The notes under the pieces were generated by a model. The model saw nothing but the letters and a program-made list of their open reading frames with translations. It had not been told where the DNA came from and searched no databases. Shown here one piece after another: positions 8,756 to 39,709 of a DNA stretch of 64,000 nt. Made by a program: the position numbers and the translations under genes. This DNA is from Cheilinus undulatus. Taxonomy: Eukaryota > Chordata > Actinopteri > Labriformes > Labridae. Position 1 is the first letter of the stretch; each line of letters starts with the position of its first letter. Where the stretch lies: NCBI RefSeq assembly GCF_018320785.1, contig NC_054886.1:36867354-36931353 (forward strand), in the 5' to 3' direction.

Positions 8756-10752
8756 ATGATCAGGATGTCATTGGACAACGAGACTGCCCTCCCTCATGAG
8801 GTTAGCCCCGCCTTTCCTGCCACCGGCAGCCTATCAGAGCAGCGAAAAATGGCCCACCCCCTCCGTCCCAAAAATGGCCTTCATCCGCCCGGCAACAGCC
8901 AGCTCGCCATCACCACCTCTGCTCCCCCTGTTCAGCGAATAGCAAAGAGGAGATTCTCCATGGGCGTCAACTTCAAGGGGATGGCCAAGAGGCGTCGCCG
9001 TGCCAACAGCGACAGCCAATCAGAGCCTGTTCTGCCAAGTCATTTCCTGTTAGGAGGAAATATATTTGACCCGTTGAACCTGAACTCGCTCCTGGACGAA
9101 GATGTCAACAAGTGAGCGAAACACCATTAATTAATACATTTATTGATTATTGAACTTTATTTCTTAGTCATCATTGAAATGTCTCACTGATCAGTTATTG
9201 ATCGCTTTATTGAGAGAGTAGTTTAACTCCCCTCCTCCTCCACAGGGCCACCAATCAGGAGACGCCTAAGTGCTCGCCCCTGCCTCTGCGGGGAGAAGAC
9301 CCCGTAGAGATCCTTGTTCCCCGTGACATCACCGACCCCCTGAACCTGAAGGGAGGCGGCGCAGACGGGAAGGAGGGGGGCGGAGTCCTGCTGTCCCCGC
9401 TGAAGATGAGGAAGAGACACAGGAACAGACACCACGGCGGGGGAGGAGAGAGGGAGGCGGTACCCGGTCGACTGTTTCCGACGGTTACTGGGCTGACAGG
9501 TGAGGGTGGTCAGGAGAATCCCTGAAATAAACAGGATTAACTAAACTTCTTCACCAAGTCAGACTAATGTTGGTTTTATTTTCCTGCAGTTCCTCTGCTG
9601 ACCACAGAGGGCAGTGTTCCTCCCTCCCCTCTCCCCTGTGAACTCAACACTGCCATCACCTGTCGGGATGATGTAGCCCCGCCCCCTATCCTCCCCAGGA
9701 GGCACACCCACCCTCCACCTGGCCAGGCCAGTAAACATGGTAACCATGGCGACAACCGCCAGCGCAGACGGCGCCGTACGACTTCAGCAAGGTCAGGAGA
9801 CTGTTCGGCTGATGCTGTTACCATGGTACCCACAGCTCGGCCAACAAAATTTCAGACTCCTCTGGTGGGAGGGGCTAAAGTTGGCAGGTGAGTGTGATGC
9901 TCTTTGAGCCTTGGGTTGCTCTTCTCTGATTGGCTGTCAGGTCATGTGACCTGTGCTCTGCCTCTTCCAGGTGTGCTGGTCTACAGCCGGGCTCTCATCC
10001 ACCACAGCAGAAGGACAAACACCGCTACCAACACGGCAACCACAGCTGCTACTATGGCTACCACGGTTTCTATGGCGACGGGTGGGAGGGGCGAGTCGGG
10101 GAAGAAGAGGATCCCAGGCTCCGCCTCCTAGAAGCTGATTGGTTCAGAGACAGAACAGTGCTGGATGTGGGCTGTGGCGCCGGTCACATGACCCTCGCCA
10201 TCGCCCGTAGATTTAACCCCACACATATCCTGGGGGTGGAGCTAGATGAGCGATTGGTCCATGCCGCCAGACAGAATGTGAGGCACTTCCTGTCACATGA
10301 CCTGGTGGTGGGGGAGAGGAGAAAAGAGGGGGTTGGGGCAAAGAAACCCCTCCCCCTCTCCTTCAGGGTGAGTCGGGGTCCTCTCTCTGCCCCGCCCCTC
10401 TTCCCCCCTTCCTCCCCCTCCTCCTCCTCCTCCAGGTTCCCTGATAACATCACCTTCATCCAGGTGAGTCTCCACCCACTGACATCCTCACTATGACCTC
10501 ATCAGCCTGCTAACAGCACCGCTCTGGCTCCTCCCACAGGGTAACTATGTGTCAGAGAAGGAGGTGTGGCCTGGAAGGGGCCAGTATGATGTCATCATGT
10601 GTCTGGGTGTGACCAAGTGGATGCAGCTGCAGTCAGGTGACGAGGGCGTGGTCACACTGTTCAAACGAGCCTATCAGAGCTTGTTGCCAGGCGGATTATT
10701 CATCCTGGAACCACAACCATGGAGCAGCTACCGCCGCAGCAAAAGAGCCTCG
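8756..10752 (+). CDS. mepce: 7SK snRNA 5'-methylphosphate capping enzyme (MEPCE), 3' end missing
   Basis: Coding exons: 8756-9111, 9246-9499, 9590-9887, 9971-10463 and 10540-10752. All are bounded by GT-AG and phases agree, giving 538 codons. Family knowledge: MEPCE methylates the gamma-phosphate of 7SK snRNA with S-adenosylmethionine and stays in the 7SK snRNP that restrains P-TEFb in the nucleus. Seen: the N-terminal conserved block [18 protein letters not shown] (about residues 95-115), the [17 protein letters not shown] block in the second exon, basic Arg runs, the SAM-binding motif LDVGCGAGH (residues 367-375), and LEPQPWSSY (523-531). A second Met (8765) is an alternative start. The final stretch of roughly 60 residues, including the family's usual FQRP-containing tail, is absent: after the donor at 10752/10753 comes a minisatellite and then the gap. 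Identity is firm; completeness is not. Confidence 0.95.
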
Positions 10753-10759
10753 GTATGTT

Positions 10760-11689
10760 AATTATTAAACCCTTAACTGTAGAACCACCGGGGGGCGCCC
10801 CATAGAGCCTGGGTAGGACGGTTATTAAACCCTAAACTGTAGAACCACCGGGGGGCGCCCCATAGAGCCTGGGAAGGACGGTTATTAAACCCTTAACTGT
10901 AGAACCACCAGGGGGCGCCCCATAGAGCCTGGGTAGGATGGTTATTAAACCCTTAACTGTAGAACCACCGGGGGGCGCCCCATAGAGCCTGGGTAGGACG
11001 GTTATTAAACCCTTAACTGTAGAACCACCGGGGGGCGCCCCATAGATCCTGGGAAGGACGGTTATTAAACCCTAAACTGTAGAACCACCGGGGGGCGCCC
11101 CATAGAGCCTGGGAAGGACGGTTATTAAACCCTTAACTGTAGAACCACAAGGGGGCGCCCCATAGAGCCTGGGTAGGACGGTTATTAAACCCTTAACTGT
11201 AGAACCACCGGGGGGCGCTCCATAGAGCCTGGGTAGGACGGTTATTAAACCCTTAACTGTAGAACCACAAGGGGGCGCCCCATAGAGCCTGGGTAGGACG
11301 GTTATTAAACCCTTAACTGTAGAACCACCGGGGGGCGCCCCATAGATCCTGGGTAGGATGGTTATTAAACCCTAAACTGTAGAACCACGGGGGGGCGCCC
11401 CATAGAGCCTGGGTAGGATGGTTATTAAACCCTTAACTGTAGAACCACCGGGGGGCGCCCCATAGAGCCTGGGTAGGATGGTTATTAAACCCTTAACTGT
11501 AGAACCACCGGGGGGCGCCCCATAGAGCCTGGGTAGGATGGTTATTAAACCCTAAACTGTAGAACCACCGGGGGGCGCCCCATAGAGCCTGGGTAGGATG
11601 GTTATTAAACCCTAAACTGTAGAACCACCGGGGGGCGCCCCATAGAGCCTGGGTAGGATGGTTATTAAACCCTTAACTGTAGAACCACG
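10760..11689. repeat. 60-bp minisatellite, about 15.5 copies, ending at the gap
   Basis: Exact 60-bp unit with TTATTAAACCCTTAACTG, AGAACCACCGGGGGG and CGCCCCATAGAGCCTGGG. It lies in the mepce intron after the 10752 donor and runs straight into the Ns, so its true length is unknown. Confidence 0.97.
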
Positions 11690-11789
11690 NNNNNNNNNNN
11701 NNNNNNNNNNNNNNNNNNNNNNNNNNNNNNNNNNNNNNNNNNNNNNNNNNNNNNNNNNNNNNNNNNNNNNNNNNNNNNNNNNNNNNNNN
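11690..11789. other. Assembly gap of exactly 100 N
   Basis: One hundred consecutive N. A round 100 is the usual convention for a scaffold join of unknown size. Left of it is the mepce minisatellite; right of it is telomere-like sequence. Confidence 0.99.
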
Positions 11790-14220
11790 ACCTGGCCTGG
11801 CACAACCTGGCCTAACCTGGCCTGGCCTGGCCCCTAACTGCCTAACCTGGCCTAACCTAACACCTAACTTCTTCCTAACCTAACCTAACTTCCTAACCTA
11901 ACCTAACACAACCTAACCTAACCTAGCCTAACCTAACTCTTCTTCTTTCTAACCTAACTAACCTAACCTAACTTCTTTCTTAACCTAACCTAACCTAACC
12001 TAACCTAACCTAACCTAACCTAACCTAACCTAACTCCTTTCTTCCTAGCACTAACCTAGCCTAACCTAACCTTCTTAACCTAACCCCTAACTTCTTCCTA
12101 ACCTAACCTAACCTAGCACAACCTAACCTACCTAACCCCTAACTAACCTAACCTAACCTAACCTAACCTTCTTTCTAACCTACTTCTTCCTACAACCTAG
12201 CACAGCACAACCTAACCTAACCTAACCTAACCTAACCTAACCTAACCTAACCTAACCTAACCCCTAACCTAACCTAACCTACAACACCTTTAACCTAACT
12301 AACTTCTAACCTAACTCCTAACCCCTAACCTTTTAACCTAACCTAGCCTAACCTAACCTAACTTCTTCTTCTTCTTAACCTAACCTAACCTAACTAACCC
12401 TAGCACAACCTAACCTAACCTAACCTAGCACAACCCTTCTTCTTTAACCTAACCTAACCTAACCTAACCACAACCTAACCTAACACAACCTAACTAACCT
12501 GGCTAATTCTTAACTACCTAACCTAACCTCCTGGCTCCTCCCAGCCTCCTCTTCTTCTTAACCTAGCCCCTAACTGTCTAACCTCTAACCTAGCACAACT
12601 TCTTTAACCTAACCTAACCTAACCTAACCCTAACCTAACCTAACTTCTTCTTCCCTAACCCCTAACTTCTTCCTAACCTAACCTAACCTCAACCTAACCT
12701 AATCTAACCCTAACCTAACTAACCTAACTACCTAACTCTAGCACAACCTAACACACCTGGCCTACTTCTTCAACCTAACCTAACTTCTGCCTAACCTAAC
12801 CTCTGGCTAACAACCTAGCCTAACCCAACTACCTAACCTAACTCACAACCTGGCCTAACAACCTAACCTAACCACAACTTAACTAGCTGCCTGCCTAACC
12901 TAACTCTTCTTTCTTCTTCTTCTTCTTCTTCTTCTAACCCTAACCTAACCTAACCTTCTTCTTTCTAACTAACTACACACCTCTTAACCTAACCTACACC
13001 ACACCTAACCTACCTAACCCCTCACCCACCTCCTCTACTCACAACCTACCTCTTCCCTAACCACCTAACCTAACCTAACCTAACCTAACCTAACCTCTAA
13101 CCTAACCTGCTAACCTAACCTTCCTCCTAACCTAACACCACCTAACCTTTCCTAACCTAACCTACTTCTTTTCTCCTAACCCCCTAGCTACACTACTTCT
13201 TCTTCTTCTTTTCTACCTTTCCTAACCTCTTAACCTTCTTCTTCTCACCCTAACCTACACTAACCCCTTCTTCTCTCCTACCTTCTTCTCTTAACACCAC
13301 TGCTCCTAACTCTTCTTCTTTCCCCTACTAACCTAACCCCTACTAAACTTCCTCTAACCCCCCACCTAACCTAACCCCCTCCACTCTAACCTAACCTAAC
13401 CTAACCTAACCCCCCCAACCTAACCCCCACCTACAACCTAACCTACACAACTGCCCTAACCCCTAACCTAACCTACAACCTAACCTGCTTAACCTCTCCT
13501 GGCCTCACACCTCCTCAACCTAACTCCTAACCTCTCCACCTAACTCTTCTTTAACCCCCACAACCTAACAGACCTAACCTACACCTCACCACCTAACCTA
13601 ACCTCCCTAACCTAACACTTTTCTACTCCTTTAACCTCCTAACCTGCTAACCTAACCTAACCCACTAACCTAACCAGCCTAACCTAACAACCTTCTTAAC
13701 CTAACTGCCTAGCCTAACCTAACCTACCTAACTCTTCACTAACTCTTCTTTAACCTAACCTCCTAACCTCTACACACTCCTAACCTAAGCCACCTGGCCT
13801 AACCTAACCTCCTCCTAACCTAACAACCTAACCTAACTAACCTAACCCCACTTCTTTCTTCTAACCTAACCCTAACCTAACCTAACCTTCCTAACCTAAC
13901 CCACAACCTAACCTAACTAACCTAACCTAACCCTAACCTACTAACCTAAACCTTTCTTAACCCTAACTAACCTAACCTAACTTCTAACCTAACCTTCTAA
14001 CCTAACCTAACCCTAACCTCTTTAACCTAACCTAACCTAGCCAACCTAACCTAACCTAACCTTTCTAACTTACAACTTCTTCTTAACCTAAACGGTGGTT
14101 TCATCCTGTATCCTAACCTAACCTAACCTAACCTAACCTAACCTAACCTAACTTCTTCTTCTTAACCTAACCTAACCTAACCCCTAACCTAACCTAACTT
14201 CTTCTTTAACCTAACCTAAT
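11790..14220. repeat. Corrupted telomeric repeat (CCTAA, CTTCTT, CCTGG words)
   Basis: About 2.4 kb dominated by CCTAACCTAACC, with runs of CTTCTT and, near the left edge, CCTGGCCTGG. Correct CCCTAA hexamers are few. The C-rich strand is on +, so a telomere would point left. The same array further right (16317 onward) is clean CCCTAA. The mix of words matches published nanopore basecalling errors of the C-rich telomere strand, so I read this as unpolished telomere rather than a real 5-bp repeat. Confidence 0.8.
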
Positions 14221-16316
14221 CTTAATGGCTGGCTAATTAGCCTAATTAGCTGGCTAATTAGCTTAATTAACTGGCTAATTAAAACACATGGAATCTGTCT
14301 CTCACTTGCTTGTTGTTAATTAGCTGGCTAATTAAAACACTTGGGCATTGTTCCGCTTGCTTTTTCTTAATTAGCCAGCTAATTAAAACACTTAGGAAAA
14401 TTTCAACAAGTCCGATCCCCTAACAAAACTTTTCAAAAAACTTACTTCAAAGTAGGGTCCAATCCACTCCAAATGCTCTGAAACGTGCTCCTAAACATCT
14501 TCTGCAGGTACCTTTTTGCCTCAAACACTTTGGCATTTTTTTCACAATCCCACACATTCGGTCCTAATGGGACGCCTCTTTAGGCCCGGAACTCTGCTTC
14601 CCTGTGTCCTACCGTCACAATACGCAAATCTACGAGCTCGCAGCCTGCTCCATTCGGGGCAAAAACCCCCAAGTCGCTGGGACCTGTCGTTGCAGAGATA
14701 AAGACTTTGCAACATGCTAATAACGCTTACCTTTCCACCTCTACTAGTCTGGCTCTCATTGGACTTTTCGCACCATCCTTGACTACGATGCGTCTTGGAG
14801 GCTCCTCTATGTCAATCCCTTGGTCCCGTCTCAATACGCCCTTCCGATGTCTAAGTAGCTTTCCACAGGGTCTACAGATACCAGACTTTACACACATCGT
14901 CTCCACCCAAAAGTCTACAGAAATGGCAACTTTCCACTCATTTGCTCTAGATTTGGACAAACTGCAGCCAAATCAAAATTCGGAAAAGCCCTTTTTAAAG
15001 GCCCGCCCCTCGGAGACTACTGGTCCCATCCGTACCGGACTGATGCCTATCTGCTCGTCTCCTGCTCCCCTACCGCATATCCCGAGCTCACGTTCCTAGC
15101 TCTTGTACAAACAGTTTTGCTCCGCACCCACCAGCCAAAACAAATCCTCTTAGCTTCTATGACCCTACCCCCATTTGTCAGCTGCATTTTGGATAAACCT
15201 AACTTTGCTTCTAAAAGAGATAGACACTTACTTTTTCACATCCTTCATCAGAGGCCCCAGGCCATCTACTGTCTGAATTCTGGGGCCTCTACACTCAAAG
15301 GGGCCAAATGGGGACAAAAAGACACTTTCGCTTTCAAACTCCATCCCTTTTTGGGAATCATTTCAAAGTGCTTGGGCCTACAGTGCTCAAATTCCGATAT
15401 GTTCGTCCTGGAATCATGTACAATCGTGCTACAGTTTTTCACCTCCTACCACCTTGCTAACTCCAAAAGGTCACGCAGAAGACGCCTAAAATGCATGCCT
15501 AAATGCACAACTTTTCATAGGAAGGTCCCACAAACTCAATCTTGGTACCATTGGAAATCTCCTGGCCACAAATGGGGGGGTAGACACCAATGCCCTCTTC
15601 ATGCCCCGCTCCCATCCAAAGTTAGCCCAATTTCAACTCCCCATTCATTTCAGATGGGGAATTTAAAAAGTCCACAACTTTTCACAGGAACATCCTACAG
15701 ACTCAATCTTGGTACCATTGGAAAGCCAGTGCCCATATTTGGGGGGGTAGACACCAATGCCCTCTTCATGCCCCGCTCCTATCAAAAGTTACGGCCAATT
15801 TCAATTCCCCATTCATTTCAGATGGGGAATTTAAAAAGTCCATAACTTTTCATAGGAACGCTTTACAGACTTGAGCTTGGTACCATTGGAAAGCCAGTGC
15901 CCATATTTGGGGGGGTAGACACCAATGCCCTCTTCATGCCCCGCCCCTATCAAAAGTTAGGACCAATTTCAAGTCCCCATTTTTTTCAGATGGGGAATTT
16001 AAAAAGTCCATAACTTTTCATAGGAACGCTTTACAGACTTGAGCTTGGTACCAGTGGAAAGCCAGTGCCCATATTTGGGGGGGTAGACACCAATGCCCTC
16101 TTGATGCCCCGCTCCTATCAAAAGTTATTCAACAAAAACTTTGGCAGAAATTCTCTTTCCAGCACTTCCGGAGGTCACAGGTCAACAAGAGTGCTACTGT
16201 TGGAAAGGCCGTACCCCTTAATGTGTGGGTAGAGCCTAATGCCCTCTTGATGCCCCGCTCTGTTGGAGGTTACGGCCCAAAATAAACTTGCCCGAAGTGG
16301 TTTTCATCCTGTATCC
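14221..16316. repeat. Subtelomeric 2.1-kb unit, copy 1
   Basis: It starts with TAATTAGCTGGCTAATTA-type dyads, continues through about 1.2 kb of unique-looking sequence, then four tandem subrepeats of about 168 bp (markers GGTAGACACCAATGCCC at 15579, 15746, 15914 and 16082), and ends GTGGTTTTCATCCTGTATCC against CCCTAA repeats. Open frames of 60-243 codons recur in every copy, but they match no domain I know and overlap on both strands. I treat the unit as noncoding satellite-like DNA. Confidence 0.93.
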
Positions 16317-16460
16317 TAACCCTAACCCTAACCTAACCTAACCTAACCTAACCCCTAACCCTAACCTAACCTAACCTAACCCCTAACTAACCTAACCTAA
16401 CCTAACCCTACCCCTAACCCTAACCCTAACCCTAACCCCTTACCCTAACCCTAACCCTAA
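16317..16460. repeat. Interstitial telomeric array (CCCTAA)n
   Basis: About 145 bp of CCCTAA with some CCTAA and CCCCTAA variants, lying between subtelomeric units 1 and 2. Confidence 0.95.
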
Positions 16461-18566
16461 TTAGCTTAATTAGCTGGCTAATTAGCCTAATTAGCTGGCT
16501 AATTAGCCTAATTAGCTGGCTAATTAAAACACATGGAATCTGTCTCTCACTTGCTTGTTGTTAATTAGCTGGCTAATTAAAACACTTGGGCATTGTTCCG
16601 CTTGCTTTTTCTTAATTAGCCAGCTAATTAAAACACTTAGGAAAATTTCAACAAGTCCGATCCCCTAACAAAACTTTTCAAAAAACTTACTTCAAAGTAG
16701 GGTCCAATCCACTCCAAATGCTCTGAAACGTGCTCCTAAACATCTTCTGCAGGTACCTTTTTGCCTCAAACACTTTGGCATTTTTTTCACAATCCCACAC
16801 ATTCGGTCCTAATGGGACGCCTCTTTAGGCCCGGAACTCTGCTTCCCTGTGTCCTACCGTCACAATACGCATATCTACGGAAAGCTCGCAGCCTGCTCCA
16901 TTCGGGGCAAAAACCCCCAAGTCGCTGGGACCTGTCGTTGCAGAGATAAAGACTTTGCAACATGCTAATAACGCTTACCTTTCCACCTCTACTAGTCTGG
17001 CTCTCATTGGACTTTTCGCACCATCCTTGACTACGATGCGTCTTGGAGGCTCCTCTATGTCAATCCCTTGGTCCCGTCTCAATACGCCCTTCCGATGTCT
17101 AAGTAGCTTTCCACAGGGTCTACAGATACCAGACTTTACACACATCGTCTCCACCCAAAAGTCTACAGAAATGGCAACTTTCCACTCATTTGCTCTAGAT
17201 TTGGACAAACTGCAGCCAAATCAAAATTCGGAAAAGCCCTTTTTAAAGGCCCGCCCCTCGGAGACTACTGGTCCCATCCGTACCGGACTGATGCCTATCT
17301 GCTCGTCTCCTGCTCCCCTACCGCATATCCCGAGCTCACGTTCCTAGCTCTTGTACAAACAGTTTTGCTCCGCACCCACCAGCCAAAACAAATCCTCTTA
17401 GCTTCTATGACCCTACCCCCATTTGTCAGCTGCATTTTGGATAAACCTAACTTTGCTTCTAAAAGAGATAGACACTTACTTTTTTCACATCCTTCATCAG
17501 AGGCCCCAGGCCATCTACTGTCTGAATTCTGGGGCCTCTACACTCAAAGGGGGCCAAATGGGGACAAAAAAGACACTCGCTTTCAAACTCCATCCCTTTT
17601 TTGGGAATCATTTCAAAGTGCTTGGGCCTACAGTGCTCAAATTCCGATATGTTCGTCCTGGAATCATGTACAATCGTGCTACAGTTTTTCACACTCCTAC
17701 CACCTTGCTAACTCCAAAAGGTCACGCAGAAGACGCCTAAAATGCATGCCTAAATGCACAACTTTTCATAGGAAGGTCCCACAAACTCAATCTTGGTACC
17801 ATTGGAAATCTCCTGGCCACAAATGGGGGGGTAGACACCAATGCCCTCTTCATGCCCCGCTCCCATCCAAAGTTAGCCCAATTTCAACTCCCCATTCATT
17901 TCAGATGGGGAATTTAAAAAGTCCACAACTTTTCACAGGAACATCCTACAGACTCAATCTTGGTACCATTGGAAAGCCAGTGCCCATATTTGGGGGGGTA
18001 GACACCAATGCCCTCTTCATGCCCCGCTCCTATCAAAAGTTACGGCCAATTTCAATTCCCCATTCATTTCAGATGGGGAATTTAAAAAGTCCATAACTTT
18101 TCATAGGAACGCTTTACAGACTTGAGCTTGGTACCATTGGAAAGCCAGTGCCCATATTTGGGGGGGTAGACACCAATGCCCTCTTGATGCCCCGCCCCTA
18201 TCAAAAGTTAGGACCAATTTCAAGTCCCCATTTTTTTCAGATGGGGAATTTAAAAAGTCCATAACTTTTCATAGGAACGCTTTACAGACTTGAGCTTGGT
18301 ACCAGTGGAAAGCCAGTGCCCATATTTGGGGGGGTAGACACCAATGCCCTCTTGATGCCCCGCTCCTATCAAAAGTTATTCAACAAAAACTTTGGCAGAA
18401 ATTCTCTTTCCAGCACTTCCGGAGGTCACAGGTCAACAAGAGTGCTACTGTTGGAAAGGCCGTACCCCTTAATGTGTGGGTAGAGCCTAATGCCCTCTTG
18501 ATGCCCCGCTCTGTTGGAGGGTTACGGCCCAAAATAAACTTGCCCCAGGTGGTTTTCATCCTGTAT
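16461..18566. repeat. Subtelomeric 2.1-kb unit, copy 2
   Basis: Nearly identical to copy 1 with a few point changes and small indels, for example AGC to GGAAAGC after the word ATCTACG near 16880. It has the same TAATTAGC head, four 168-bp subrepeats and GTGGTTTTCATCCTGTATCC end. Confidence 0.93.
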
Positions 18567-18679
18567 CCTAACCCTAACCCTAACCCTAACCCTAACCCTA
18601 ACCCTAACCCTAACCCTAACCCTAACCCTAACCCTAACCCTAACCCTAACCCTAACCCTAACCCTAACCCTAACCCTAA
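18567..18679. repeat. Interstitial telomeric array, near-perfect (CCCTAA)n
   Basis: About 19 near-perfect hexamers between units 2 and 3. The Pro-Asn frame across it is a translation of the hexamer. Confidence 0.97.
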
Positions 18680-20610
18680 TTAGCTTAATTAGCTGGCTAA
18701 TTAGCCTAATTAGCTGGCTAATTAGCTTAATTAGCTGGCTAATTAAAACACATGGAATCTGTCTCTCACTTGCTTGTTGTTAATTAGCTGGCTAATTAAA
18801 ACACTTGGGCATTGTTCCGCTTGCTTTTTCTTAATTAGCCAGCTAATTAAAACACTTAGGAAAATTTCAACAAGTCCGATCCCCTAACAAAACTTTTCAA
18901 AAAACTTACTTCAAAGTAGGGTCCAATCCACTCCAAATGCTCTGAAACGTGCTCCTAAACATCTTCTGCAGGTACCTTTTTGCCTCAAACACTTTGGCAT
19001 TTTTTTCACAATCCCACACATTCGGTCCTAATGGGACGCCTCTTTAGGCCCGGAACTCTGCTTCCCTGTGTCCTACCGTCACAATACGCATATCTACGGA
19101 AAGCTCGCAGCCTGCTCCATTCGGGGCAAAAACCCCCAAGTCGCTGGGACCTGTCGTTGCAGAGATAAAGACTTTGCAACATGCTAATAACGCTTACCTT
19201 TCCACCTCTACTAGTCTGGCTCTCATTGGACTTTTCGCACCATCCTCGACTACGATGCGTCTTGGAGGCTCCTCTATGTCAATCCCTTGGTCCCGTCTCA
19301 ATACGCCCTTCCGATGTCTAAGTAGCTTTCCACAGGGTCTACAGATACCAGACTTTACACACATCGTCTCCACCCAAAAGTCTACAGAAATGGCAACTTT
19401 CCACTCATTTGCTCTAGATTTGGACAAACTGCAGCCAAATCAAAATTCGGAAAAGCCCTTTTTAAAGGCCCGCCCCTCGGAGACTACTGGTCCCATCCGT
19501 ACCGGACTGGTGCCTATCTGCTCGTCTCGTGCTCCCCTACCGCATATCCCGAGCTCATGTTCCTAGCACTAGTAGAAACAGTTTTGCTCCGCACCCACCA
19601 GCCAAAACAAATCCTCTTAGCTTCTATGACCCTACCCCCATTTGTCAGCTGCATTTTGGATAAACCTAACTTTGCTTCTAAAAGAGATAGACACTTACTT
19701 TTTTCACATCCTTCATCAGAGGCCCCAGGCCATCTACTGTCTGAATTCTGGGGCCTCTACACTCAAAGGGGGACAAATGGGGACAAAAAAGACACTCGCT
19801 TTCAAACTCCATCCCTTTTTTTGGAATCATTTCAAAGTGCTTGGGCCTACAGTGCTCAAATTCCGATATGTTCGTCCTGGAATCATGTACAATCGTGCTA
19901 CAGTTTTTCACACTCCTACCGCCTTGCTAACTCCAAAAGGTCACGCAGAAGACGCCTAAAATGCATGCCTAAATGCACAACTTTTCATAGGAAGGTCCCA
20001 CAAACTCAATCTTGGTACCATTGGAAATCTCCTGGCCACAAATGGGGGGGTAGACACCAATGCCCTCTTCATGCCCCGCTCCCATCCAAAGTTAGCCCAA
20101 TTTCAACTCCCCATTCATTTCAGATGGGGAATTTAAAAAGTCCATAACTTTTCATAGGAACGCTTTACAGACTTGAGCTTGGTACCATTGGAAAGCCAGT
20201 GCCCATATTTGGGGGGGTAGACACCAATGCCCTCTTGATGCCCCGCTCCTATCAAAAGTTAGGACCAATTTCAGGTCCCCATTCATTTCAGATGGGGAAT
20301 TTAAAAAGTCCATAACTTTTCATAGGAACGCTTTACAGACTTGAGCTTGGTACCAGTGGAAAGCCAGTGCCCATATTTGGGGGGGTAGACACCAATGCCC
20401 TCTTGATGCCCCGCTCCTATCAAAAGTTATTCAACAAAAACTTTGGCAGAAATTCTCTTTCCAGCACTTCCGGAGGTCACAGGTCAACAAGAGTGCTACT
20501 GTTGGAAAGGCCGTACCCCTTAATGTGTGGGTAGAGCCTAATGCCCTCTTGATGCCCCGCTCTGTTGGAGGGTTACGGCCCAAAATAAACTTGCCCCAGG
20601 TGGTTTTCAT
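18680..20610. repeat. Subtelomeric 2.1-kb unit, copy 3 (one subrepeat shorter)
   Basis: Same architecture but with three 168-bp subrepeats instead of four: after the first, the sequence passes directly to the version with CATAACTTTTCATAGGAACG. It also lacks the terminal CCTGTATCC and goes from GTGGTTTTCAT straight into TAACCC. Confidence 0.93.
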
Positions 20611-20766
20611 TAACCCTAACCCTAACCCTAACCCTAACCCCTAACCCTAACCCCTAACCCTAACCCTAACCCTAACCCTAACCCTAACCCCTAACCCTAA
20701 CCCTAACCCTAACCCTAACCCTAACCCTAACCCTAACCCTAACCCTAACCCTAACCCTAACCCTAA
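20611..20766. repeat. Interstitial telomeric array (CCCTAA)n
   Basis: About 155 bp of CCCTAA with occasional CCCCTAA, between units 3 and 4. Confidence 0.96.
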
Positions 20767-22898
20767 TTAGCTTAATTAGCTGGCTAATTAGCCTAATTAG
20801 CTGGCTAATTAGCGTAATTAGCTGGCTAATTAAAACACATGGGAGCTGTCTCTCACTTGCTTGTTGTTAATTAGCTGGCTAATTAGCTTAATTAGCTGGC
20901 TAATTAAAACACTTGGGGATATCTCCGCCTGCTTTTTCTTAATTAGCTGGCTAATTAAAACACTTGGGCATTGTTCCGCTTGCTTTTTCTTAATTAGCCA
21001 GCTAATTAAAACACTTAGGAAAATTTCAACAAGTCCAATCCCCTAACAAAACTTTTCAAAAAACTTACTTCAAAGTAGGGTCCAATCCACTCCAAATGCT
21101 CTGAAACGTGCTCCTAAACATCTTCTGCAGGTACCTTTTTGCCTCAAACACTTTGGCATTTTTTTCACAATCCCACACATTCGGTCCTAATGGGACGCCT
21201 CTTTAGGCCCGGAACTCTGCTTCCCTGTGTCCTACCGTCACAATACGCATATCTACGGAAAGCTCGCAGCCTGCTCCATTCGGGGCAAAAACCCCCAAGT
21301 CGCTGGGACCTGTCGTTGCAGAGATAAAGACTTTGCAACATGCTAATAACGCTTACCTTTCCACCTCTACTAGTCTGGCTCTCATTGGACTTTTCGCACC
21401 ATCCTTGACTACGATGCGTCTTGGAGGCTCCTCTATGTCAATCCCTTGGTCCCGTCTCAATACGCCCTTCCGATGTCTAAGTAGCTTTCCACAGGGTCTA
21501 CAGATACCAGACTTTACACACATCGTCTCCACCCAAAAGTCTACAGAAATGGCAACTTTCCACTCATTTGCTCTAGATTTGGACAAACTGCAGCCAAATC
21601 AAAATTCGGAAAAGCCCTTTTTAAAGGCCCGCCCCTCGGAGACTACTGGTCCCATCCGTACCGGACTGATGCCTATCTGCTCGTCTCCTGCTCCCCTACC
21701 GCATATCCCGAGCTCACGTTCCTAGCTCTTGTACAAACAGTTTTGCTCCGCACCCACCAGCCAAAACAAATCCTCTTAGCTTCTATGACCCTACCCCCAT
21801 TTGTCAGCTGCATTTTGGATAAACCTAACTTTGCTTCTAAAAGAGATAGACACTTACTTTTTTCACATCCTTCATCAGAGGCCCCAGGCCATCTACTGTC
21901 TGAATTCTGGGGCCTCTACACTCAAAGGGGGACAAATGGGGACAAAAAAGACACTCGCTTTCAAACTCCATCCCTTTTTTTGGAATCATTTCAAAGTGCT
22001 TGGGCCTACAGTGCTCAAATTCCGATATGTTCGTCCTGGAATCATGTACAATCGTGCTACAGTTTTTCACACTCCTACCACCTTGCTAACTCCAAAAGGT
22101 CACGCAGAAGACGCCTAAAATGCATGCCTAAATGCACAACTTTTCATAGGAAGGTCCCACAAACTCAATCTTGGTACCATTGGAAATCTCCTGGCCACAA
22201 ATGGGGGGGTAGACACCAATGCCCTCTTCATGCCCCGCTCCCATCCAAAGTTAGCCCAATTTCAAGTCCCCATTCATTTCAGATGGGGAATTTAAAAAGT
22301 CCACAACTTTTCACAGGAACATCCTACAGACTCAATCTTGGTACCATTGGAAAGCCAGTGCCCATATTTGGGGGGGTAGACACCAATGCCCTCTTCATGC
22401 CCCGCTCCTATCAAAAGTTACGGCCAATTTCAATTCCCCATTCATTTCAGATGGGGAATTTAAAAAGTCCATAACTTTTCATAGGAACGCTTTACAGACT
22501 TGAGCTTGGTACCATTGGAAAGCCAGTGCCCATATTTGGGGGGGTAGACACCAATGCCCTCTTCAAGTCCCCATTTTTTCAGATGGGGAATTTAAAAGTC
22601 CATAACTTTTCATAGGAACGCTTTACAGACTTGAGCTTGGTACCAGTGGAAAGCCAGTGCCCATATTTGGTCAATGCCCTCTTGATGCCCCGCTCCTATC
22701 AAAAGTTATTCAACAAAAACTTTGGCACAAATTCTCTTTCCAGCACTTCCGGAGGTCACAGGTCAACAAGAGTGCTACTGTTGGAAAGGCCGTACCCCTT
22801 AATGTGTGGGTAGAGCCTAATGCCCTCTTGATGCCCCGCTCTGTTGGAGGGTTACGGCCCAAAATAAACTTGCCCCAGGTGGTTTTCATCCTGTATCC
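20767..22898. repeat. Subtelomeric 2.1-kb unit, copy 4 (longer head, altered tail)
   Basis: Its head carries extra TAATTAGCTGGCTAATTA-spaced segments (20870-20965) not found in copies 1-3. In the 168-bp subrepeat zone it has a deletion joining the words ATGCCCTCTTC and AAGTCCCC near 22565, and a shortened next subrepeat. It ends in the same CCTGTATCC. Confidence 0.92.
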
Positions 22899-23070
22899 TA
22901 ACCCCTAACCCTAACCCTAACCCTAACCCTAACCCTAACCCTAACCCCTAACCCCTAACCCTAACCCTAACCCTAACCCTAACCCTAACCCTAACCCTAA
23001 CCCTAACCCCTAACCCTAACCCTAACCCTAACCCTAACCCTAACCCCCTAACCCTAACCCTAACCCTAAC
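22899..23070. repeat. Interstitial telomeric array (CCCTAA)n
   Basis: About 170 bp of CCCTAA, a few CCCCTAA, ending at GTATAAATTC where non-telomeric DNA begins. Confidence 0.96.
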
Positions 23071-25467: not shown

Positions 25468-28400
25468 TCATTTCTTGATCTTCTTCTGTCGATCAAGGAA
25501 CTTCTGTCTGCGTTCTTTGGGAATCTCATCCAAGCTGATCCCGTGGTTACTGGCCCTGTTAGAGAGAGAGGGAGGGGTTTTTCTTGTTATACCTGATGAC
25601 AGCTGGAGATAGAGGATTTTAAAATTATCTTTCCAGTGTTTCTAAAAAATAAAAAATAAATATTTTACCCTCCGGTCAAGTCTGGAGGAACAGGAAGTGG
25701 TTTATTGAATCCATCTCGACCCACCAACCAGTAGGTGTCCATGGTTCCCTTTACCTTTACAAAGAAACATTAATGCCATTATAGACCCATACCACTCTAC
25801 AAACCTACAGCTTTATAGAGCCATACCATTCTGAAACCTACAGCTTTATAGAGCCACAACATTCTATAAACCTACAGCTTTATAGAGCCACAACATTCTA
25901 CAAACCTACAGCTTTATAGAGCCACAACATTCTACAAACCTACAGCTTAAAAGAGCCACAACATTCTATAAAGCTACAGCTTTATGGAGCCATACCATTC
26001 TGAAAACTACAGCTTTATAGAGCCACAACATTCTACAACCCTACAGCTTTATGGAGCCACAACATTCTACAAACCTACAGCTTTATAGAGCCACAACATT
26101 CTACAAACCTACAGCTTTATAGAGCCATGAAGTTCTATGACCCTTTATCTTGTCAAAACATTCTGTAACCCTACCTTTAAGCCTTAAGAGTAGCAAAACA
26201 TGCTTTAGCCCTACCTTAACACCTTTAAAGTGACATAACAATGCATCATTCTTCTCTTTTAACTGTTACAGTGCCGTAACACTCAATTACTCTACTTTTG
26301 GACCTATAGTGCCAGAATATTTAATAACCCTACCACTACATCTTTATAGTACTATAACATTATATAATCCCGTGTTTACACCTTTTAAGTCTCAATGCAT
26401 TTCCTATCCCTATCTTAACCCTAACCCTGACATAACATAATTTGTAATGCAAGCTTTACACCTTTGTAGTGCCATTACATTCCATAATCCTACCTGCACA
26501 AGGATTTACTGCTACACCATTCTTTAAGCCTTAACTTTACACATTTTTAGTACCATAACATGTATTATTCTATCGTTACACCTTTATGTGCCATAGCATA
26601 ATACAACCCTTAAAAGATGATGAGACAGGCGGGAGTACCTGAGCCTTCCTGGTGTCGATGTGATATCCCAGTTTGAGACTGGTCAGGACCTTCACTGTGT
26701 TCAGACTGATGTGGATCCTGTAGGCTGGACAATACAAAAAATATTCTGATGTTCCTGGTTGTTCAACTTCACTCTGCACTCACATGATCTTACTGACATG
26801 CTAACATCACATGGGGACAGGAAGTGAAGACCAATAGTAAGGGATAAATGGTAATGGGTTAGGTTAGGAAGTAAAGTTAGTCCGTTAGAGCTCTAGGTGG
26901 ACGTAAAGTTAGTTCATCAGAGCTAGAGTTCGAGGAGTTAAACCAGTTTACTTTTGCCTTCAATGCCTTTCGTGGAAATGCTGACATTAGAGACTGTAGT
27001 GAAGAATTGTTTCTGAGGGGTCCTGTTCTATGAGCTGGGTTAAGGTTAGGGTTGATCTGAATGGCAGGAAAGACAGTCCCAGTCCAACAGAAAATCACTT
27101 CCTGCCACCCGAGTATAGTTCTTGCTTTGCTGTGACAACATCTTAAATGATGACAATTTTACTCATTCCTACTCACGCAGCCCGGTAGCTTCCATGTGAG
27201 ATGCTGTCGTCACCGTATCCCCAAACAGACAATACCTGGGCATCGTTAAGCCAACGACCCCTGCAACCACTGGACCTGCAGGTGATTTAAAAACCGAGGA
27301 ACAGGAGCAGAGGATAGGTTAGGTTTCTTTGACATTTGTAACAGTGATTTAGAGGGAATCAGTAATCCTCCACAGACAAACATCTTTGTGACATTAACCA
27401 AATGTTTTGTTTTCAGATAGAGGTGTTATACCGCTGTGAAGGCCGATGCGTATTTTGACTTTTATCTCGGGCATGTGTCTGATCTTGAACGCAGCGATGG
27501 AGTGGAGGATGTCCAGAGACATGTTGGCAACTTCGGCTGCATGTCGATTCCCATTTCTGTTTGGGACCCCTGAAGCCACCATGTAGGCATCGCCGATAGT
27601 TTCCACCTGAAAAGGGAACCAGAATCCTGAACTACCATCTGGGACCATCAGAGGTGCAGAGTGAGAGTGAATTAACCTCTAAATAATCAATTAAATTCTC
27701 TGCTTAATCAGAGAAAAAGACCACGTTTACTGGAGTATCATGACGAGCATGTCTCACCTTGTAGACGTCGTGAAGAGCAATGATGGCATCGAACATCGTG
27801 TACAGGTCATTGAGCAGGTCAACCACCTAAACACCCACAAACACAGCTTTAGAGGAATGGAGCTTCACCATTGGTTAATTTCAGGTTATACTGATCAGCA
27901 GGTTTTACCTCAATAGGTTCACTGAGCGCTGAAATAGTTGTAAATCCAACAATGTCACTGAAGTAGAGAGTGCTGTCTGAATAATGCTCAGGCTGGACCG
28001 GCTTCCCCTTCTTCAGAGCCTGAGCCACAGACCTGAACCAGAAAGAGACTGAGTTCATAATTTCATTTTTTTTTTTTTTTTTTTTATCATCAATCTACTC
28101 TATAGATTTATTCATCTGTAATATGCTGGGGGACTCTACTACCCCTGCGTTAATAAAACTGAAATGCATACCTACTAAAGTAATACAGCATTTTACAATA
28201 CATCATTATTTACTGGAGATTAAATAGTAGTGTGTGGATGTGTATGAATACCTTACACTGAGGGACAGTCTACACACCAACCATCAGTGTGTTAGTGCTG
28301 TTCAAACACATAGTACATGTAGTTGCACATAGTGCTCCAATCTTTCTAAATTCCAGTTGTTTACTGTCTTTGACAGTTACATTGGTTAATCTTGATTTTT

Positions 28401-37400: not shown

Positions 37401-39587
37401 CAGGGTCACTGTAATTGGAAGGCTAACCCTTTTGCTAATGTGCAACAATGTTTTAGGACAAATGTGCAAGAACTCTAGGACTTTACACTAGGATTAAGAC
37501 AAATGCACAATATCAGCAGTACTTCATGTTAGAGAGTTTTGTGAAAAAATCTGCAAAACACCATTTCTTTATATTAACATGCATTAGGACAATGGTACAA
37601 TAACACTGATACTTTGTTAAATTACATTTATCATTAATATTTTTTTTTCTATTATTCCTTTTTTCTTATTTATTGCTTTTTTAACTCAAATGTACAATAA
37701 TGCCAGTACGTCATATTAGAATGTATCAAAAAAAATGTGCAATAACATGAATACTTTAAAATTAATTACATTTATCAATATTTTTTCTGAACATTCTTTA
37801 TTTCTTTATTGCTTGTCTATTATTTCAGAAATTGCAGTTAGGGTTTTTAAGGTAGTGAGGGTTCGTTAGTTAGGTAGTCAGAATCAGGTGGGTAGAAAGT
37901 CAGGATTAGGTGGGTAGATAGTCAGGATTAGGTGGGTAGATAGTCAGGATTAGGTGGGTAGGAAATCAGGATTAGGTGGGTAGGTAGTCAGGATTAGGTG
38001 GGTAGGTAGTCAGGATTAGGTGGGTAGGAAATCAGGATTAGGTGGGTAGGTAGTCAGGATTAGGTGGGTAGGTAGTCAGGATTAGGTGGGTAGGAAATCA
38101 GGATTAGGTGGGTAGATAGTCAGGATTAGGTGGGTAGGAAATCAGGATTAGGTGGGTAGGAAGTCAGGATTAGGTGGTTAGGTAGTCAGGATTAGGTGGG
38201 TAGGTAGTCAGGATTAGGTGGGTAGGAAATCAGGATTAGGTGGGTAGGTAGTCAGGATTAGGTGGGTAGGAAATCAGGATTAGGTGGGTAGATAGTCAGG
38301 ATTAGGTGGGTAGGTAGTCAGGTAAGGTGGGTAGGAAGTCAGGATTAGGTGGGTAGGTAGTCAGATTAGGTGGGTAGGTAGTCAGGATTAGGTGGGTAGG
38401 TAGTCAGGATTAGGTGGGTAGGTAGTCAGATTAGGTGGGTAGGTAGTCAGGATTAGGTGGTTAGGTAGTCAGGATTAGGTGGGTGGGAAGTCAGGATTAG
38501 GTGGGTAGAAAGTCAGGATTAGGTGGGTAGGTAGTCAGGATTAGGTGGGTAGGTAGTCAGATTAGGTGGGTAGGTAGTCAGGATTAGGTGGGTAGGTAGT
38601 CAGGATAAGGTGGGTAGGTAGTCAGGTTAGGTGGGTAGGTAGTCGGAATTAGGTGGGTCAGTAGTCAGATTAGGTGGGTAGGTAGTCAGATTAGGTGGGT
38701 AGGTAGTCAGGATTAGGTGGGTAGTTATGGATAGTTAAGTGGTAAGGGTAAGATAGATAGTGTTAGTTAGGTAGTAAAGGTTGGTTAGGTGAGTTGATAG
38801 TTTGACCTGTGTTTTTGTGAGGTCACACCCCTTACCTGAGATGATGCCAACGTGAGCCCATCTAAAGAACCTCAGCACAGTGAAAAGGACTTTGCTTGGA
38901 GGCACAATGGGTGGAAGGTTTGGCCAATCAGCATCAAGACAGCCTGGGGAGGCAAGCCCCGCCTCCCAGTGTTCAGTAAATAAGGAAGCAGCATGGCAGA
39001 GGGCAGGGTTAAAGGGTCCGATGTAGGCGTGTCCATAGCCCTCCATATCCCCAAGTTCTGTGAGTGCTAAAAATAGAATAAAATAGAAAATAACATTAAA
39101 AACACGTAAAAACACAATAAAAAAAAGCTTTCGAAAGTTTGGAGTCCAGTACAACATGTCATCAACATTAAATGTGTTTACAAAAAAGACAAGGGCCCTT
39201 AAAAACATCAGGGTTAGGATTAGATAGGTCAGAGTTAAATAACCACAACCCTGACCCTTGCAAAGGTTTAGGCTTAGTTAAACCTAACATTTAATGTTTT
39301 ATTTGTTTTGCCTGAGAAATGTTGTGATTGGCTGACCAACCTTTGGAGGCGGAGCAGTCTTCATCCAATAGTTTGACGTCGTACCAGTACCCTCGGCTCA
39401 GCCCGCTGTCACTCCGTAAACGGGACAATGCCAGGTTAGCCGCTGCTGTTGGCATTGCTCTGGAGAACATGGGGTCACATGTCCACGGTCCAATCAGAGC
39501 CAGTTTAAAAGTTGCAGTCCTGACCTCTATGATGCATAGCAACCACAGACCAACACCTAGCAACCACCTAGACGGCTGCATCCTGAC
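25468..39587 (-). CDS. gucy2d-like: Retinal-type membrane guanylyl cyclase (retGC, 23 coding exons)
   Basis: Coding exons from 5' to 3' (minus strand): 39341-39581, 38836-39066, 37164-37319, 36882-37024, 35148-35303, 34869-35018, 34237-34456, 34053-34128, 33865-33949, 33206-33322, 32867-32950, 31584-31760, 30917-31070, 29949-30092, 29647-29795, 29325-29488, 27909-28032, 27758-27826, 27432-27606, 27177-27275, 26639-26724, 25669-25754, 25468-25555. All phases agree; the sum is 3,174 nt, 1,057 residues, close to the family's roughly 1,100. Family role: makes cGMP in photoreceptor outer segments to restore the light-sensitive current, controlled by GCAP proteins. Domains in order: signal peptide (1-22), ligand-like ectodomain, one membrane segment (about 435-456), pseudokinase domain (about 470-760), coiled-coil linker, cyclase (about 816-1010), short tail. 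The tail word NHGISL-EIP-ERR resembles GUCY2D as I remember it more than GUCY2F, so the paralog call is tentative. An acceptor at 39588/39587 shows a noncoding first exon upstream. Confidence 0.93.
25785..26135. repeat. 34-bp minisatellite in cyclase intron 21
   Basis: About ten copies of ACATTCTACAAACCTACAGC plus TTTATAGAGCCACA. Decayed versions continue to about 26580. Confidence 0.92.
28033..29324. other. Cyclase intron 16, no other feature seen
   Basis: A 1.3-kb intron of AT-rich unique DNA with a T run (28069-28086) and a short TTAGGG-like scrap (near 28775). No exon or transposon was recognised. Confidence 0.5.
30240..30365. repeat. (CATC)n microsatellite
   Basis: CATCCATCCATC with periodic CAAG and CATG interruptions. 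On the minus strand it is (GGAT)n, the usual tail of fish RTE/Rex3 LINEs, and it directly follows a decayed LINE-like segment. Confidence 0.95.
30366..30895 (-). mobile_element. Decayed RTE/Rex3-type LINE fragment
   Basis: Read on the minus strand, it resembles, as I recall it, the start of the Rex3 endonuclease region: TTTTGGGATGTGGAACATC, a CTCCTGGAGTGGGGCTGG stretch, then a tail joined to (GGAT)n. Frames are broken throughout. It lies in cyclase intron 13, in the same orientation as the gene. Confidence 0.5.
32100..32680. repeat. 42-bp TA-rich minisatellite in cyclase intron 11
   Basis: About nine copies of ATGTTAGATGTATATAATGT plus AATTTTAGATATATTTGCTGTA, with decayed copies at the right end. 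Because 42 is divisible by 3 and stops are absent in one frame on each strand, long frames appear on both strands; neither is a gene. Confidence 0.95.
33005..33155. repeat. 32-33-bp minisatellite, about 4 copies
   Basis: Unit TTAACAGATGGTAGAGTTAT plus CAGATAAAAATG, in cyclase intron 10. Confidence 0.9.
33515..33798. repeat. 20-bp minisatellite, about 14 copies
   Basis: Unit GCTAACAGTGTTGAGGCTCT with AACTGTGTCG variants, in cyclase intron 9. Confidence 0.95.
35520..36810. repeat. 26-bp (2 x 13) minisatellite in cyclase intron 4
   Basis: Unit GCAGTTTATCAAG + GAGGTCTATCAGG, about 45 copies; two related 13-mers alternate. The long plus-strand frames rich in VYQGGLS and RRSIRA are translations of it. 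A poly-G run sits at 36756-36766. Confidence 0.95.
36837..36899 (-). other. gucy2d-like: Tandem duplication of an exon-intron junction
   Basis: GGTCACCTTGTACGGCATGG (36837-) and GGTCACCTGGTATGGCATGG (36876-) are 39 bp apart. On the minus strand both read TATGCCATGCC..., then a Tyr codon, Cys/Lys-side AG and a GTGACC donor. Use of the downstream donor would add exactly 13 codons in frame to exon 4. Confidence 0.7.
37855..38735. repeat. 22-bp minisatellite in cyclase intron 2
   Basis: Unit TAGGTAGTCAGGATTAGGTGGG, about 39 copies, with GGAAATCAGG variants. It is G-rich on + (no C except in TCA). Confidence 0.96.
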
Positions 39588-39709
39588 CTGGAAACAAAAG
39601 AAATATAATAATTAAATTAAACAAAATCATTAAGTTTACTTCCAAAAGAAAAAACATGACATGTCCTCATACCACTAGGGGGCGCTAAGACGGTGTTTTT
39701 ATGACACGA

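Follow-up and report, generated by a model that had tools for sequence, protein, structure and literature searches.

Interstitial telomeric tracts occur in fish, and a fusion-derived interstitial telomeric sequence likewise appears as telomeric repeat inside a scaffold. Scaffolded assemblies can also contain pieces that are reverse-complemented within their scaffold; one comparison reports 1-25 such misorientation errors (average 6.5) in nearly all of the human assemblies compared (PMC9668749). In nanopore data, the telomeric repeat CCCTAA is miscalled as CTTCTT and CCCTGG, according to a further study (PMC9414165). Here we analyze a locus of Cheilinus undulatus that resembles each of these systems, since it presents telomeric repeat inside a scaffold, a terminal piece that appears to be reversed, and a C-rich telomeric strand in which CTTCTT replaces CCCTAA. 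The analyzed stretch of 64,000 nucleotides (C22:36,867,354-36,931,353; hereafter the window, whose own positions are used unless a contig label precedes them) is situated at the far right of the 37,038,322-bp scaffold C22, and in it the gene mepce is interrupted shortly before a telomeric array. We conclude that this telomere in mid-neighborhood is most likely an assembly artefact, and from the sequence we regard it as very probable that the 159,180-bp contig beginning at position 11790 is the true right end of chromosome C22, scaffolded in reverse. Our searches covered the assembly of 1,173,462,691 bases in 46 contigs (labeled C1-C46).

The array is separated from mepce by a scaffold gap of exactly 100 N (11690..11789; C22:36879043-36879142), the sole run of N in the window. 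After this gap, C22 continues for 159,180 bp to its right end, all of which we fetched and in which no further N was present. The scaffold ends in a minisatellite that is unfinished and runs off the terminus (a 29-base word of it has 16 exact matches genome-wide, all at that end); no telomere was found in the last 600 bases, and none was visible by eye in the first 600 bases of C22. Since no N intervenes and the terminus is an unfinished minisatellite, no piece of the scaffold lies further out than the telomere-bearing contig, whose telomere points inward, so that reversing this single piece would place the telomere at the right chromosome end. Two features expected of a reversed contig are therefore present: the outermost contig has its telomere on the inward side, adjoining a placeholder gap, and the scaffold terminus is devoid of one.

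The terminal telomeric array (11790..14091, + strand) carries a signature of CCTAA, CTTCTT, and CCTGG characteristic of nanopore miscalling, and its true tip would lie to the left. Inside the array, the end of a subtelomeric unit persists as a remnant (14092..14110, +; bounds approximate), after which a CCTAA tract (14111..14220, +) precedes the first subtelomeric unit; because this tract carries CTTCTT, it is miscalled like the array. Four subtelomeric units of ~2.1 kb each follow (14221..22896, +), with (CCCTAA)n tracts between them at 16315-16460, 18567-18679, and 20611-20766, and a last (CCCTAA)n tract (22897..23070, +) is positioned such that the units lie between it and the tip. The array on C21 embeds a similar remnant of the last bases of the subtelomeric unit, and the remnants in both arrays may mark the addition of telomeres onto a truncated unit. 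A preliminary description of this DNA had correctly identified the ~2.1-kb units and had proposed that the join is a scaffolding artefact at which a contig starts, at 11790, as a chromosome end; the inward telomere, the 100 N, and the miscalls bear this out. Its C-rich telomeric repeat is likewise real, although the repeat is not the clean CCCTAA that had been supposed but mostly CCTAA interspersed with CTTCTT.

The same arrangement recurs across the assembly. A 1.9-kb subtelomeric query yielded at least 56 matches, the stronger of which were grouped by eye, leaving out diverged C14 matches (72-74%) and short or weak ones (below ~600 bits) with the exception of C5-R. Seven clusters point outward within 10 kb of a sequence end (C1-R, C3-R, C5-R, C11-L, C19-R, C28-L, and C44-R; the C5-R match is partial, 320 bases), two point outward from the interior (C12-R, 35 kb inside; C17-L, 159 kb inside), and six point inward (C3-L, C9-R, C16-L, C18-R, C21-L, and C22-R). 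The telomeric side adjoins exactly 100 N in 6/6 of the inward clusters, the gaps other than that of C22 being located at C3:442304-442403, C9:52043114-52043213, C16:506016-506115, C18:44240917-44241016, and C21:138821-138920. The outer pieces at these six places measure 130,508-552,757 bp, which corresponds to 0.29-1.05% of the respective scaffold, and on the other five scaffolds neither CCCTAA nor TTAGGG occurs in the 600 bases at the outer end. Hence, these five scaffold ends are probably reversed terminal contigs as well. As for the remaining relatives of the subtelomeric unit, the interior outward units are found at C17:155500-158700 and C12:51376500-51380000, where the short stretches read are free of N, and those on C14 (72-74% identity) lie at 45.70 Mb and, spaced roughly every 3 kb, at 48.72-48.76 Mb.

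We judged the motif counts of 11790-14220 against 100 dinucleotide shuffles. For CCTAA, 219 copies compare with a shuffled mean of 44 and a maximum of 56, and for CTTCTT, 52 copies compare with a mean of 3.2 and a maximum of 8; the 21 copies of CCCTAA, in contrast, are near chance (mean 18, maximum 28). No CTTCTT is present in the four tracts from 16315 onward, of which CCCTAA covers 49-96%. By raw counts, CTTCTT is frequent in the other five inward arrays (from 48 in 1,104 bases to 231 in 2,916) and also at scaffold termini, namely C11-L (177 in 3,700 bases), C1-R (51 in 1,945), and, weakly, C3-R (9 in 1,323). The nanopore start adapter, whose sequence was taken from PMC7490894, matches C9:52043217-52043238 over 22 bases with 1 mismatch, beginning at the fourth base past the gap. 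With up to 2 mismatches allowed in 1.17 Gb, this match is the sole one, and a backward-read control gave 0. This sequence is a residue left in the assembly directly ahead of the telomeric array, and its position implies that the C9 contig begins where the sequenced molecule began. From the like signature of its array, we infer that the contig on C22 also starts at a molecule start.

On the reading that the terminal contig of C22 is reversed, its telomeric tip would now touch the 100-N placeholder, which does not measure the length of the gap, and its inner end, lying within the unfinished minisatellite, would have become the scaffold terminus. Both contigs would have stopped in minisatellites, so that the intervening sequence, including the last mepce exons, was left unassembled. 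The corrected order would then be mepce (+), a gap of unmeasured length with the last mepce exons, a PI3K gene (+), gucy2 (+), the subtelomeric units, and a TTAGGG telomere. The likely cause would be a failure of Hi-C data to orient a short, repeat-rich contig.

Up to the break, mepce appears intact. An exon in which the methyltransferase domain begins (9930..10365, +, end approximate; Methyltransf_25 match in 9930-10493) is followed by the last assembled exon (10540..10752, +), which covers positions 1-55 of the 109 of the Bin3 profile and is succeeded by GT at 10753-10754; the frames 9930-10493 and 10483-10755 are both open. In solved chains of the 7SK methylphosphate capping enzyme, the match to this last exon extends to residue 230 of 292 (5una) and 247 of 309 (6dcb), leaving 62 residues beyond it. 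The absence of the last ~60 residues had been noticed before, but not as the single exon then assumed: the missing part comprises two exons in the C12 paralogue, as read by eye from its splice sites. The interrupted intron contains a 60-bp minisatellite (10762..11688, +; 15.4 copies, 96% matches) that runs, as previously described, into the 100 N.

The telomere-bearing contig holds the catalytic-domain exon of gucy2 in an open frame (27397..27678, - strand; Guanylate_cyc, E 4.3e-14) and extracellular-domain exons, also in open frames (38738..39611, -). The ANF_receptor match spans 38738-39277, while the frame 39294-39611 gave no Pfam match but finds other gucy2-like places in the genome. Minisatellites are very numerous from 24646 to 64000 of the window and in the rest of C22, and tandem-repeat masking covers ~59% of the 159-kb contig. 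Our initial assignment of the PI3K gene, made by eye, was pik3cd, a guess that we dropped when a search of solved structures placed it nearer to p110-alpha; a literature search on mepce/pik3cd/gucy2 synteny found nothing. Among 15 matches of the first gucy2 exon, the best non-self match is on C12 near 37.95 Mb (82% over 61 residues), and the best non-self match among 4 for the second exon is at the same place (47% over 76 residues). For mepce, the other match is located ~1.8 Mb away, at C12:36.16 Mb; a third Bin3 match, on C3, probably represents a different Bin3 gene. Because the nearest relatives of the two flanks of the gap thus lie ~1.8 Mb apart on C12, a common chromosome is tentatively favored for both flanks, and reversal would accordingly be preferred to placement from another chromosome. 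The C12 mepce and gucy2 are on one strand, and the C22 pair would share a strand only after reversal, yet this argument is weak because the mepce/gucy2 order differs between C12 and C22.

Several observations weigh against a reversed contig. The C12 copy of the missing mepce exon, used as a tblastn query, found nothing better than a low-complexity match (E 0.63) in the 159-kb contig, although the preceding C12 exon does find its C22 counterpart (55% identity, E 6e-24, in a 21.7-kb target); the exons must hence lie in the gap, be unassembled, or be lost. The missing gene part is accordingly not at the other end of the contig, where it would be expected only if the gap were short. The PI3K exon has relatives on C7 and C13 only and none on C12, the next best match of the first gucy2 exon (71%) is on C22 itself at 28.8 Mb, and for the second exon the margin over the next best match (44%, on C2) is small. 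As for the miscalls, CCCTGG, the second one published, is absent from the array, in which CCTGG occurs 13 times instead; the 439 bases read at the C44 end, an outward cluster, show no miscalled array (3 TTAGG, 0 AAGAAG); and with up to 4 edits allowed no adapter was found in the C22 window or at the other loci scanned, C9 excepted. A comparison of the six scaffold ends with five gap flanks (that of C9 was not included) revealed no convincing overlap, and the scan for further gaps covered the outer piece of C22 as a whole, while those of the other five scaffolds may hold more gaps. The sole overlap matches were two inverted ones between the C3 end and the C3 flank (66% over 918 bases and 75% over 80), which we rejected as a true overlap, since they probably reflect a dispersed repeat.

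Some of these findings would suit an inter-chromosomal misjoin, in which the contig is the true end of another chromosome wrongly attached to C22: the missing mepce exons are not in it, and its PI3K exon is without a relative on C12. We nevertheless consider such a misjoin unlikely, because the contig is an outermost piece that one reversal repairs, the same layout is present at all six inward clusters, and the best non-self matches of the two gucy2 exons tested are on C12, as is the other mepce. The proposal in the preliminary description that two unrelated contigs had been joined is thus probably wrong. It had also suggested looking for a further scaffold end that carries both the missing exon and the same 60-bp minisatellite; neither turned up, although the exon searches might overlook a short, diverged sequence, and a 28-base word of the minisatellite has 13 matches with at most 1 mismatch assembly-wide, all at this site.

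A different explanation concerns the gene rather than the contig and is compatible with its reversal: the last exons of mepce on C22 may truly be gone, in which case the minisatellite would mark where the 3' end has decayed and the scaffolding error would be unrelated. We found no second copy of these exons in the assembly, and the C12 copy keeps them. Searches of the whole genome with the C12 exon (E up to 10) returned only C12 itself and one match on C7, which contains a stop and was rejected as a chance match (E 2.4), and the Bin3 profile (E up to 10) gave four matches genome-wide (two on C12, one on C22, one on C3), none of them a second half on C22. Genome searches are weak for this exon, since even the second half on C12 reached no more than 23.2 bits (E 0.08) with the profile, and exon and profile searches alike could miss a short diverged one. 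Moreover, the tested frames are open, a GT follows the last exon, and the contig merely stops in a repeat. Exon loss therefore appears distinctly improbable, and the last exons presumably lie in the gap. A more specific version strikes us as very doubtful: the C22 copy of mepce, situated beside the chromosome end, would have lost the C-terminal exons of the capping enzyme where a minisatellite is expanding, and only the C12 copy would still be complete. Least credible is a real interstitial telomere, the fusion or inversion alternative raised earlier, in which a chromosome fusion or a subterminal inversion brought telomeric DNA next to mepce and disrupted it. Telomeric and subtelomeric DNA does lie inside the scaffold, and interstitial telomeric tracts occur in fish, but a fusion should leave the telomeric tract flanked by continuous sequence to its left and right, and its left flank is 100 N that no assembled sequence crosses to connect mepce with the array, the array bears the miscalls of a molecule end, and six like ends (one with adapter) would require six events, each exactly at a placeholder gap.

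A reversed terminal contig, which remains our preferred explanation for C22, thus probably exists at six scaffold ends of this assembly, and subtelomeric gene order, gene truncations, and apparent interstitial telomeres at these ends are consequently unreliable. The combination of an inward telomere at a 100-N gap, a position in the outermost percent of a scaffold, and nanopore miscalls in the array offers a check for such ends that requires the sequence only. Apart from these ends, contig C46 (16,613 bp) is probably the mitochondrial genome, because rRNA and tRNA genes are present within its first 10,000 bases.

Collectively, these data set the C22 locus apart from the systems that it resembles. 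In comparison with the misorientation errors described in human assemblies, the probable error on C22 can be seen without recourse to other data, because the telomeres sit on outermost contigs, and its layout is found at six scaffold ends in all. The miscalls differ from those described in PMC9414165 in that they stand in the assembled consensus, are mixed mostly with CCTAA, and include CCTGG without any CCCTGG. Finally, when compared with a fusion-derived interstitial telomeric sequence, the C22 array borders a 100-N placeholder near a scaffold end and is accompanied by subtelomeric units on one side only.

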